A DNA stretch of 64,000 nt from Pseudofrankia coriaricola. GTDB taxonomy: Bacteria; Actinomycetota; Actinomycetes; Frankiales; Frankiaceae. Within the stretch, counting starts at the first letter, position 1; each line of letters starts with the position of its first letter. Below, piece after piece: positions 37,145 through 61,361 of this stretch. Below the pieces are notes generated by a model. It did not search any database, was not told the origin of the DNA, and worked only from the letters and a program-made list of their open reading frames with translations. The position numbers and the translations under genes are program-made. The stretch spans positions 1 through 64,000 of the forward strand of contig NZ_MBLO01000280.1 in NCBI RefSeq assembly GCF_001854805.1, given 5' to 3'.

Positions 37145-37719
37145 GTTCCGGGCTTCCTCCTCGTCGGACGGTGGTCCGGGGAAAGGGAGATGGATGGCGG
37201 ACGACGCCGGATGTGAGCGCGTAAGCGGCCAGCCAGTTCTCTGTGGCGGGCGACGCCTCGCCCGGCCGGGGCGGGGGAGGAGAGTTCGCGATGACCAGCC
37301 GACTCCGCGCTGGGCGGAACCGTCGAGATCCGCCCGCAGACCATGTTGACCATGCGGGGACATCGCCCCGCGCCGAGTGTCGCGAAGTTGATGCGCCGCG
37401 CCGCGCCGCGTTGGGCCGGGGCGGTGCTGGGCGGGGAGAACCGCGACGTGTCCGGGTCGTTCCCACGGCGGCGATGGACGGTGACTGGACGCCAGTTCGC
37501 ATACTCGGCTGGCGATCACCGGCGCTCGGCTGTGCGGAAGATCGCCAGGACTGTATCCGGATCCGAACGCCGGGCCCTTCGCCCATTCGGATCCGGATAC
37601 AGAACCGGTGATCAAGCTCACGGCGCGGCGATGTTATCGGGGCAACCTTGGCTGAAGCCGCACTGGCGGGCCGTCGTCGGGCAGGATGGCCTGGCCGGTG
37701 CGATTCAAGAGGCGGGTGA
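37145..37719. other. Divergent intergenic stretch with palindromic element
   Basis: 575 bp between the VWA gene and the CoA-transferase operon. It contains no convincing gene. An 82-bp palindromic element at 37538-37619 is the one clear structure (listed separately). Confidence 0.5.
37538..37619. repeat. 82-bp palindromic dispersed element, copy A
   Basis: The core is a 17-bp perfect stem, 37551-37567 pairing with 37586-37602 (CTGTATCCGGATCCGAA and complement), with an 18-nt loop containing GGGCCC. On its reverse strand it aligns over 82 bp with 58819-58900, from GAGCTTGATC to GGCGATCTT. Small size, hairpin shape and intergenic location fit a REP- or MITE-like element. Confidence 0.8.
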
Positions 37720-38469
37720 GTGGTGGACAAGGTGGTGGCGGCCGCGGCTGATGCGGTGGCGGACGTCGGCGACGGCGCGTCGCTGGCGGTCGGCGGCTTC
37801 GGGCTGTGCGGCATCCCGAGCGCGCTGATCGAGGCCCTTCTGGACGCCGGTGTGTCCGGGCTGCGGACGGTCAGCAACAACTGCGGCGTGGACGGCTGGG
37901 GCCTGGGCATGCTGCTGCGCGCCGGTCGGATAGCGCGGACCACCGGCTCCTATGTCGGGGAGAACAAGGAGTTCGAGCGGCAGTTCCTCGCCGGTGAGCT
38001 CGAGGTCGAGCTCGTCCCGCAGGGGACGCTCGCCGAGCGGCTGCGCGCCGGCGGCGCTGGCATCCCTGCCTTCTACACCCCGGCCGGTGTTGGCACCCAG
38101 GTCGCCGAAGGCGGCCTTCCGCTGCGTTACGACGGCAAGGGCGGTGTCGCGCTCGCCTCCGAGCCCAAGGAGACCCGCGTCTTCGACGGCGAGGAGTACG
38201 TGCTGGAGCGAGCGATCGCCTGCGACTTCGCGCTGGTCCACGCCTGGAAGGGCGACCGGCACGGCAACCTGGTCTACCGGGAGAGCGCGGCGAACTTCAA
38301 CCCGCTGTGCGCCGCCGCCGGCAGGATCACCATCGCCGAGGTCGAGGAGCTCTACGAGCCGGGCGAGCTCGACCCGGCCGAGGTGCACACCCCCGGCATC
38401 TTCGTGCAGCGCGTCCTGCACACGCCCGGCGTCGAGAAGCGCATCGAGAAGAGGACGGTGACGGCATGA
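37720..38469 (+). CDS. scoA: 3-oxoacid CoA-transferase subunit A
   Basis: A 249-residue class I CoA-transferase alpha subunit. [20 protein letters not shown] and [17 protein letters not shown] are characteristic, with [20 protein letters not shown] downstream. It activates acetoacetate or another 3-oxoacid using succinyl-CoA or acetyl-CoA. GTG 37720 starts it. It overlaps scoB by 4 nt. Confidence 0.9.
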
Positions 38470-58650: not shown

Positions 58651-58818
58651 CCGGCGCTCCCGCCCTGGGCGCCGACTCCAGCGCGGCGTTCGCAAGATGG
58701 GCCGGTGGCAGGATGGGGCCATGGCAATCCTGCCGTATATGCACCCGTTCGTCCTTACCGTGGAACCTGTGGGACGGCACCGCCAGTCAGAGTTGGCCCG
58801 GCCGCGTCCTCGCGTCGC

Positions 58819-58900
58819 GAGCTTGATCGGCGGATCTGTATCCGGATCCGAACTGGCGAGGGCCCACGAGTTCGGATCCGAATACCGTCGTGGCGATCTT
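58819..58900. repeat. 82-bp palindromic dispersed element, copy B
   Basis: Aligns with the reverse strand of 37538-37619 over 82 bp. Its core hairpin (GTATCCGGATCCGAAC with its near-complement ending GAATAC) has one mismatch, against a perfect stem in copy A. It lies between convergent TetR and helicase genes, where it could also serve as a terminator. Confidence 0.78.
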
Positions 58901-58937
58901 TCGTTGCGAGAGCCGGGCGATGCCTCGGCGTTCTCCA

Positions 58938-61361
58938 TCATCCGGACGAGCCGCCCTGCGCCGGCAGCTCGCGAATCCCGGCCCAGACGCTGTCACGCGC
59001 TCTCGTGATGGCGACGTACAGCTGCCGGCGTTCCAGCTGGCTCCGCTCGCGGAACGCGTCGGCGGACTCGGACGGCTGCCGCGGCCTCGGGAAGAGGTTG
59101 CGGTCGGGAATGCAGACGTGGGCGAAGTCAAGGCTCTTGACCCGGTGGTACGTGCCGACCTTCACCGCCTCGCGGCTGGTCCCGTCGTATTCCCTGAGGG
59201 AGACGGCCGGAATCCGCCGCTCGGTGAGGACGCGCAGCCAGCGCGCGGCCGCGGCGTTCGTCGGCACGAGCACAGCCATGTCGCCGTAACGAAGGTTCCG
59301 GTCGCCGTGGAACTCCACGAGGTGCTCGCAGAGTGCCGCGTCCTGCGAGACGGTGCTGGGCACCGTGACCTCGTGGACCTCACCTCCTGGCCGGTCGATG
59401 TCGACCTCGCGCCGTCCCTGTTCCGGTATGCCGTCGAGGTCGTCGAAGCTGTCGTCCGCGATCACCGCCTGGGCGTAGCGCAGGATCTTCTCGCGATTGC
59501 GGTAGTTCGTGGTGAGCACGGTGGAACGTCCGACGACGGAGACGCCGGCCTCGGCGAGGGTGAAACCGCCCGGATAGATGGACTGCTGGCCGTCGCCGAC
59601 GACGAACAGCCCGTCCGGCCTGTCGCCGACGAAGGCGTGCAGGAGCTGTAGGCCGACGCACGTCAGGTCCTGCACCTCGTCAACGATCACCGCGTCGTAC
59701 CGGGTGCCGGAGCTTTCGCGCACAAGGTCCCGGGCCAGCAGCAGCGCGTCGTCCCGATCGAGGACGCCGCGCTCCGTCCGGAGCTGCTCGTACCGCTCGT
59801 ACAGCTCCCACACCGCGCGTCGGTGATTCTGCTGCAGGGGAGTGCTGCGCCCGACGCGCGCCAGCCTGGCGTACTGCTCGAAGGCCGTCAGGCCTCTGCC
59901 CTTGATGACCGTCGAGATCTCGTCCTGCCAGTACCGGGGGGCCAGTCCGACCCCGGGAAGAGTCGAGAACTGCCCGACCTGCGCCCAGGCGCGCCAGAAG
60001 CAGGTCTCGGCGACCTCCTGCTGGTGGCGGTCCGCCAGGCCATGATCACGAAGACAACGGGCGGCGACGGCATGGACCGTGGCGAACTCGATCCGGTCGA
60101 CCTGGTCGGGCGCCATCCGGGTCAGCAGGGCACGGTAGACCGGCCCCAACGTGCGCACTAGTGAGGTGAACAGCACCCGTTCCCCTCGTGCCGCCAGGTA
60201 TTTGGCGCGGTGCAGCGCGACGACCGTCTTGCCGGTGCCGGCCGCGCCGCGCACGCGGGCCGGACCCGACCAGCGCCGACCGGACAAGCGGGCCTGCGTC
60301 GGATGCAGCCAGGTCATCCACGTCTCGATCGGCTCCCGCGCGGCGGCGTCGAGGAGCTCCCGCCACAGCTCCTCGCGGCTCAGCAGGGCTTCCTGATCTG
60401 GGCCGCCGCGCGCAGGGGCCTCAGACCCGCCCGACCTGGTTGACCCTCCCGACCCGGTTGCCCCGGACGACCCCGCCGACCCGGTTGCCCCGGCGGGTCT
60501 GGCCGGTGGCCGCGGGGCGGCGGCCGCCCTGGCGCCGTGCGCGACCGAGCGGCCTGGCGGAACCGGCGGTGGATCGGTCAGGCCGGCCCGGTGCGTGACC
60601 GGATGGCGGGCGGACCGCGCGGGCGGCACCGCGGCGACCGTGGCGCGGGGCATCGGCGGGCAACCGTCCGCCAGGCAGCTCAGCAGGCGTTCGACCAGGC
60701 CCGGTGCCAGCCGGGGGCTCCGGCGTCCGAGGTTGAGGGCCAGGTCCTGCTCGCCGATGACGGTCACTCGGTCGAGCTGCGCCAGGACGTTCCTGCGCCC
60801 GCCCAGCACGAGCAGCGGAACCACCTCGGCCGGCGGCAGGCCCGCGTCCGTCAGCACCTGCTCCACCGCGACGGTCTGGTCCACGAGCTTGCGGAGGTCG
60901 TCCTCGGCGTCGGCGTCTCCCCGGAACAGCCGGCCGCCTTCGATGGTGACGTCCCGCCAGTTCTTCACATCGAGCACGAAGACGCCGCCGGGGCCGACGA
61001 CGAGGGCGTCGATGTTGGCCCGGCGGGTTCCGGGCCACTGCCGGTCCGACAGGAAGTGCCATCCGGCGTCGTCCATGCCGATCAGTACCCGGACGACGCT
61101 CTGCTCGGCCCGGCCGCCGGCCTCCCAGCGCTCGCGGTGCCGGCGTAGCTGGCGCAGCACGTCGTTCAGGTGCTGGACCTGCCGCTGGACACCGTCGATC
61201 TCCAGGCCAAGCTGGACGGCCTGGCCAAAGGCCGACGGTTCCGCGGGCGGGTCGACGTCTCGGGCCGGCGGCGCGTCGGAGGCAGCCAGGCCCGCGGTCG
61301 GCGCGGTGGTGGCGGTCGCGGCGGTGGTGGGGAGGCCCGCTGGCCGCTCACGCGAAAGCAC
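58938..61361 (-). CDS. NERD-domain UvrD-like helicase
   Basis: An 807-residue fusion. The N-terminal NERD nuclease-related domain is about residues 85-200, with D118 in ANIDALVVG and the D-x-K pair in LDVKNW. A Gly/Ser/Thr-rich linker spans about residues 290-320. The superfamily 1 helicase follows: Walker A GAAGTGKT at 372-379, Walker B VIVDEVQDL, motif III VVGDGQQSIY and motif VI YVAITRARD. The start codon is GTG. NERD-helicases may process foreign or damaged DNA, and some act in phage defence; neither role is shown here. Confidence 0.87.
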   Translation of the reverse strand: MLSRERPAGLPTTAATATTAPTAGLAASDAPPARDVDPPAEPSAFGQAVQLGLEIDGVQRQVQHLNDVLRQLRRHRERWEAGGRAEQSVVRVLIGMDDAGWHFLSDRQWPGTRRANIDALVVGPGGVFVLDVKNWRDVTIEGGRLFRGDADAEDDLRKLVDQTVAVEQVLTDAGLPPAEVVPLLVLGGRRNVLAQLDRVTVIGEQDLALNLGRRSPRLAPGLVERLLSCLADGCPPMPRATVAAVPPARSARHPVTHRAGLTDPPPVPPGRSVAHGARAAAAPRPPARPAGATGSAGSSGATGSGGSTRSGGSEAPARGGPDQEALLSREELWRELLDAAAREPIETWMTWLHPTQARLSGRRWSGPARVRGAAGTGKTVVALHRAKYLAARGERVLFTSLVRTLGPVYRALLTRMAPDQVDRIEFATVHAVAARCLRDHGLADRHQQEVAETCFWRAWAQVGQFSTLPGVGLAPRYWQDEISTVIKGRGLTAFEQYARLARVGRSTPLQQNHRRAVWELYERYEQLRTERGVLDRDDALLLARDLVRESSGTRYDAVIVDEVQDLTCVGLQLLHAFVGDRPDGLFVVGDGQQSIYPGGFTLAEAGVSVVGRSTVLTTNYRNREKILRYAQAVIADDSFDDLDGIPEQGRREVDIDRPGGEVHEVTVPSTVSQDAALCEHLVEFHGDRNLRYGDMAVLVPTNAAAARWLRVLTERRIPAVSLREYDGTSREAVKVGTYHRVKSLDFAHVCIPDRNLFPRPRQPSESADAFRERSQLERRQLYVAITRARDSVWAGIRELPAQGGSSG

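Follow-up and report, generated by a model that had tools for sequence, protein, structure and literature searches.

The window analysed here, a 64,000-nucleotide stretch of the 11.2-Mb genome of Pseudofrankia coriaricola (G000), carries two 82-bp palindromes in opposite orientation, at positions 37538-37619 and 58819-58900, which align with 84% identity (genome-wide search, E = 5e-19) and confirm the pair picked out from the letters in an earlier note. The nearest gene downstream of the first, and outside the element to which it belongs, encodes a 3-oxoacid CoA-transferase subunit A (37720-38469, + strand; TIGR02429, E=6.8e-74; PF01144, E=1.6e-75), while the second is followed by a NERD/UvrD-type helicase gene (58938-61361, - strand; PF00580, PF08378 and PF13361) whose 3' end falls just past the element. 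A family HMM, trained on family members that include both window copies, recognises exactly two elements in the window. Copy 1 has an HMM-supported extent of 37513-37663 on the - strand (model positions 4-149 of 167; nhmmer E = 9.5e-39), and copy 2 occupies 58783-58920 on the + strand (model positions 12-146 of 167; E = 3.2e-34); both are also read on the opposite strand at a lower score because the core is palindromic. The palindromes described earlier are therefore real, but the 82-bp limit set on them, with the remark that the outside bases differ, does not hold, since homology extends well past the palindromic core. By BLAST, copy 1 matches the 170-bp consensus with E=1.2e-45 and 91% identity over 37535-37663; its left terminal inverted repeat (TIR) lies at 37644-37666 and its opposite end is decayed, as are both ends of copy 2. 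A weak third trace that had been suspected near 1800-1835 is not a family member, there being no HMM match to it even at E <= 10, whereas in the window the palindromes indeed have no transposase associated with them, as the earlier note said.

Each copy is centred on a hairpin that we assign to neither strand. In copy 1 it spans 37551-37602, with arms at 37551-37568 (CTGTATCCGGATCCGAAC) and 37585-37602 (ATTCGGATCCGGATACAG), as defined by the sequence, pattern matches and stem covariation over 35 copies; in copy 2 it spans 58836-58887, with arms at 58836-58853 (CTGTATCCGGATCCGAAC) and 58870-58887 (GTTCGGATCCGAATACCG), on the basis of sequence, pattern matches and stem covariation. The stem, previously put at 16-17 bp, measures 17-18 bp in the window copies, and the GGGCCC loop that had been called conserved is common to these two, whereas most family copies read GGGCTC. 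A known RNA family or tRNA was rejected as the identity of the palindromes, the window giving no Rfam match at gathering thresholds and no ARAGORN tRNA match. Next to copy 2, an ORF (MAILPYMHPFVL...) begins within window positions 58700-58783; in two congeners (G005 and G006) the homologous sequence runs on, whereas in the window it is interrupted at copy 2, so that the ORF is apparently a decayed gene.

Roughly 27 copies and fragments of the palindromic repeat are present in the window genome, contrary to the possibility, entertained in the earlier note, that no further copies exist. The retrieved loci comprise 46 distinct elements, nearly all of them from three carriers, which are related soil actinobacteria: among 40 relatives searched, strong matches came from G005, which is P. 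asymbiotica, and from another congener, G006, while five other congeners, the other sampled Frankiaceae genera and the genomes of other families had no family copies, with only a 29-base end match in G004. A scan of 84,980 species with the exact core pattern, which misses diverged copies and may leave out the window genome's own or very near records, matched one named species, Pseudofrankia asymbiotica NRRL B-16386. The full element is ~167 bp long and ends in CTGGTGCCGCTTCAGCCAAGGTTGGCCC and, read from the opposite strand, TGGTGCCGTCCCCGGCGACGTTCGCCC; its centre reads CTGTAyCCGGATCCGAAC, a loop of ~15 bases and GTTCGGATCCGGrTACAG, and past its ends the flanks of the copies cease to align. Its multiple dispersed, short and non-coding copies are as expected of a MITE, and so are its terminal inverted repeats (CTGGTGCCG...CGGCACCAG), which are imperfect. 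The copies are intergenic and, where both neighbours were called (by a simple heuristic rule of codon composition), lie between convergent (11), tandem (22) or divergent (5) genes. Several have a stop codon only a few bases from their start; in copies such as L249, L264, L251, L126 and L093 the edge reaches 3-4 bases into the end of a predicted gene, which looks as though the CTAG/TAG junction had supplied the stop codon.

The insertion polymorphism that the earlier note had thought worth looking for was found at copy 1, which P. asymbiotica shares at the orthologous position, whereas in G006 the flanks are joined, GGTTAGCGGGCGCTA running directly into ACTGGTGGGCTG. This is a presence/absence difference at one site, for which precise loss in G006 is a possible alternative; of the sites examined one by one, that of copy 1 gave the only clean empty site. 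The left flank of copy 2 aligns with G005 and G006 to about 58784-58786 and then stops, and in both genomes the locus is rearranged and without the element. In all, eight orthologous insertions were recognised. Copies L005 and L011 are common to all three carriers, and at these loci G001-G004 gave no element match. Since copies are shared at orthologous sites in the carriers, a good part of the family probably spread before the three species split and would have been inherited since; most copies have the appearance of old intergenic sequences passed down vertically.

IS630-type transposases are Tc1/mariner-like DDE enzymes that insert at TA. When the terminal sequence was searched by itself, isolated family ends came up in the window genome; one of them, an IS end at C69:58348, matches the MITE consensus by BLAST (E=1.3e-4 against the genome). 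It is the 3' end of an 89-aa remnant of an IS630-type transposase, and this broken gene contains a diverged relative of the element. The sister genus g2 provides a complete IS of about 1.24 kb (L155:1621-2860) with the ends of the MITE, TTAGTGCCGCATCAGGCAACGTTGGCCC...GCGGCATTAG, and the 396-aa product of the ORF in this IS matches the NF033545 IS630 transposase (NCBIfam; E = 1e-44) and Pfam DDE_3. The left end of the MITE agrees with IS630 ends at 19-26 of 28 positions and the right end at 17-21 of 28; over the examined IS ends and those of a second MITE family the range is 17-26 of 28, with p <= 0.0004 for each in base shuffles of the IS end. The MITE thus has its ends in common with an autonomous element, represented by the IS630-family IS in the sister genus and the remnant in the window genome. 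The second, MITE-like family lies in the window genome outside the window and combines the same IS630-type ends with a different central palindrome (TCAGACGTnrCGCG...GCGTCTGA); its copies are at C234:102850-103005 (L109), C204:2039-2189 (L113) and C269:16650-16804 (L104), with partial copies on C114 and C235.

The central stem evolves in pairs. Over its 18 pairs in 35 copies, 28 cells are changed on both sides as against 11 in shuffles, and the covariation score is 0.193 versus 0.134 +/- 0.009 in shuffles, with no slid structure coming close. Because paralogues share ancestry, orthologous pairs at fixed sites make a stronger test, and in eight such pairs we counted nine compensatory double changes where between 1.1 (random matching) and 2.0 (generous matching) were expected, an expectation that allows for hot spots. 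Nine such changes were reached in 0 of 20,000 simulations, and with certain matching P = 0.00045; stem changes at orthologous sites are matched in pairs beyond chance. Element bases outside the stem vary freely in most of these pairs.

As both of its ends match the ~28-bp TIRs of Frankiaceae IS630-family ISs, the element is a MITE, and it is best read as one that is IS630-derived or IS630-captured and whose partner has decayed. Our preferred account, to which we give a probability of about 0.82, is that the palindromes are the centres of this ~167-bp MITE, that an IS630 element mobilised it in trans before decaying, and that the paired changes in its stem most likely come from template switching. 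An IS630-type transposase would once have moved the element, mostly in the common ancestor of the three Pseudofrankia species; the partner IS would then have decayed, leaving most copies as presumably immobile intergenic relics passed on vertically. Against this account, a search of the carrier genomes with the C-terminal 89 aa (E<=1e-20) turned up no intact partner transposase, and the left and right ends of the MITE are identical to one another at just 19 of 28 positions. The end dinucleotides also fit imperfectly and give no clean sign of a two-base target duplication: most copies have TA or its one-step derivatives TG and CA, a mix that likely comes from decay of TA, but none was found to combine an intact TA at both ends with a TA at the empty site, and the empty site of copy 1 reads TG where TA is expected. 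The dinucleotide is mostly TG at left ends, and at right ends it is CA or TA; the changed base thus adjoins the element on both sides, a pattern that may reflect loss of CTAG sites or the true terminal base of the element. The earlier note had left the choice between a REP-like and a MITE-like element, and its second half stands, given the dispersed copies, the inverted ends shared with IS630 and the presence/absence difference between species. A REP/BIME-type element moved by a RAYT (Y1 tyrosine) transposase would equally be short, palindromic, intergenic and dispersed, yet this identity was rejected and is very improbable: a search for the RAYT family (PF01797) was negative in all three carriers but positive in control genomes and in the element-free G007, and the IS630-like terminal inverted repeats of the element are a feature that REPs are not known to have. 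That two unrelated palindromes resemble one another by chance, as simple palindromes with BamHI-like GGATCC cores might, is a negligible prospect given the E=5e-19 between the copies, the many further copies and the homology outside the palindrome.

With regard to the cause of the paired stem changes, we favour template switching over selection for the hairpin. Template switching during replication at a quasi-palindrome, in which one arm is copied onto the other, is the most likely source of the matched changes and has been proposed for RNA hairpins (PMC8794818), although selection could give the same pattern. A hairpin co-opted at the RNA or DNA level, for instance as a bidirectional terminator-like or mRNA 3'-end structure, and held paired by purifying selection is a possibility of limited weight. 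It would account for a stem covariation exceeding all shuffles and all slid structures, for compensatory changes at fixed insertion sites, and for intergenic copies that seldom lie between divergent genes and in several cases sit directly at gene 3' ends. It fits less well with the many unpaired stem cells that are tolerated (14% are not Watson-Crick) and with the lack of a clear preference for wobble intermediates on either strand (43 GT versus 26 AC cells, which are not independent, and about 6 versus 5 in the ortholog events). Copy 1 and its ortholog in G005 differ in the stem by five one-sided changes and no compensatory one, the copy-1 site in G006 does without the element altogether, and the orientation of the copies to their neighbours is not fixed. 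The broader version, in which the hairpin core was domesticated, relic MITEs provide the host with gene-end hairpins, and selection rather than mutation bias pairs the stem across the three species, appears doubtful. Gene conversion between dispersed copies could also swap both arms at once, and each genome does hold many paralogues with alternative stem variants; we nevertheless consider it unlikely because L064 and L098 are identical in the loop (15/15) and in the bases flanking the stem (36/36) and differ in one stem pair altered on both sides, which a conversion tract would not readily produce.

The IS630-related MITE family in Frankiaceae is apparently undescribed so far. A 2009 survey of Frankia insertion sequences counted IS630 elements, and its main text makes no mention of MITEs or palindromic repeats (PMC2770080); in the literature searched we found no published report of the Pseudofrankia family. 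Its stem gives an uncommonly clear example of evolution in matched pairs. As in template-switched hairpins (PMC8794818), matched changes occur in both stem arms with the loop unchanged, but those hairpins are in RNA genes whereas the Pseudofrankia stem sits in mostly decayed intergenic MITE copies, on which selection may act weakly or not at all. With orthologous copies in three species, most of them relics, these palindromes offer a way to tell template switching apart from selection on structure, since many of the hairpins occupy places of little expected function.

Several known repeats are comparable. The Correia/NEMIS and ERIC elements are likewise dispersed and palindromic with TA at their termini, but they belong to other hosts and have no recognised IS partner in the review that describes them (PMC2229807). 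The cyanobacterial Nezha MITE, as far as its citation in PMC3049150 goes, has a proposed IS partner (ISNpu3-like) recognised by common terminal inverted repeats; its host is of another phylum, and we liken it to the Pseudofrankia MITE by description, not sequence. The closest described element is RUP, the repeat unit of pneumococcus in S. pneumoniae, for which IS630-Spn1 has been proposed as the mover from shared inverted repeats and TA targets (PMC2229807, PMC3049150). Both are short, non-autonomous intergenic repeats with TA-type termini and inverted ends like those of IS630-family ISs, and one diverged Pseudofrankia copy lies inside an IS630 transposase gene, just as RUPs lie in ISs. On the other hand, RUP is 107 bp long and the Pseudofrankia MITE ~167 bp with ends of about 28 bp; the latter resides in a GC-rich actinobacterial host, its copies are old and diverged, its partner IS is decayed, and it has a strong, separate central hairpin with covariation. 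By description, the two have no evident sequence relation. In the IS630 remnant that is interrupted by the diverged relative (L127, G000:C69:58348-58990), the inserted sequence has ends of its own resembling CAGTGCCCGC and a perfectly paired outer stem (GATCGCCAGATCTGTA...TACAGATCTGGCGATC), and L097 of P. asymbiotica is similar.
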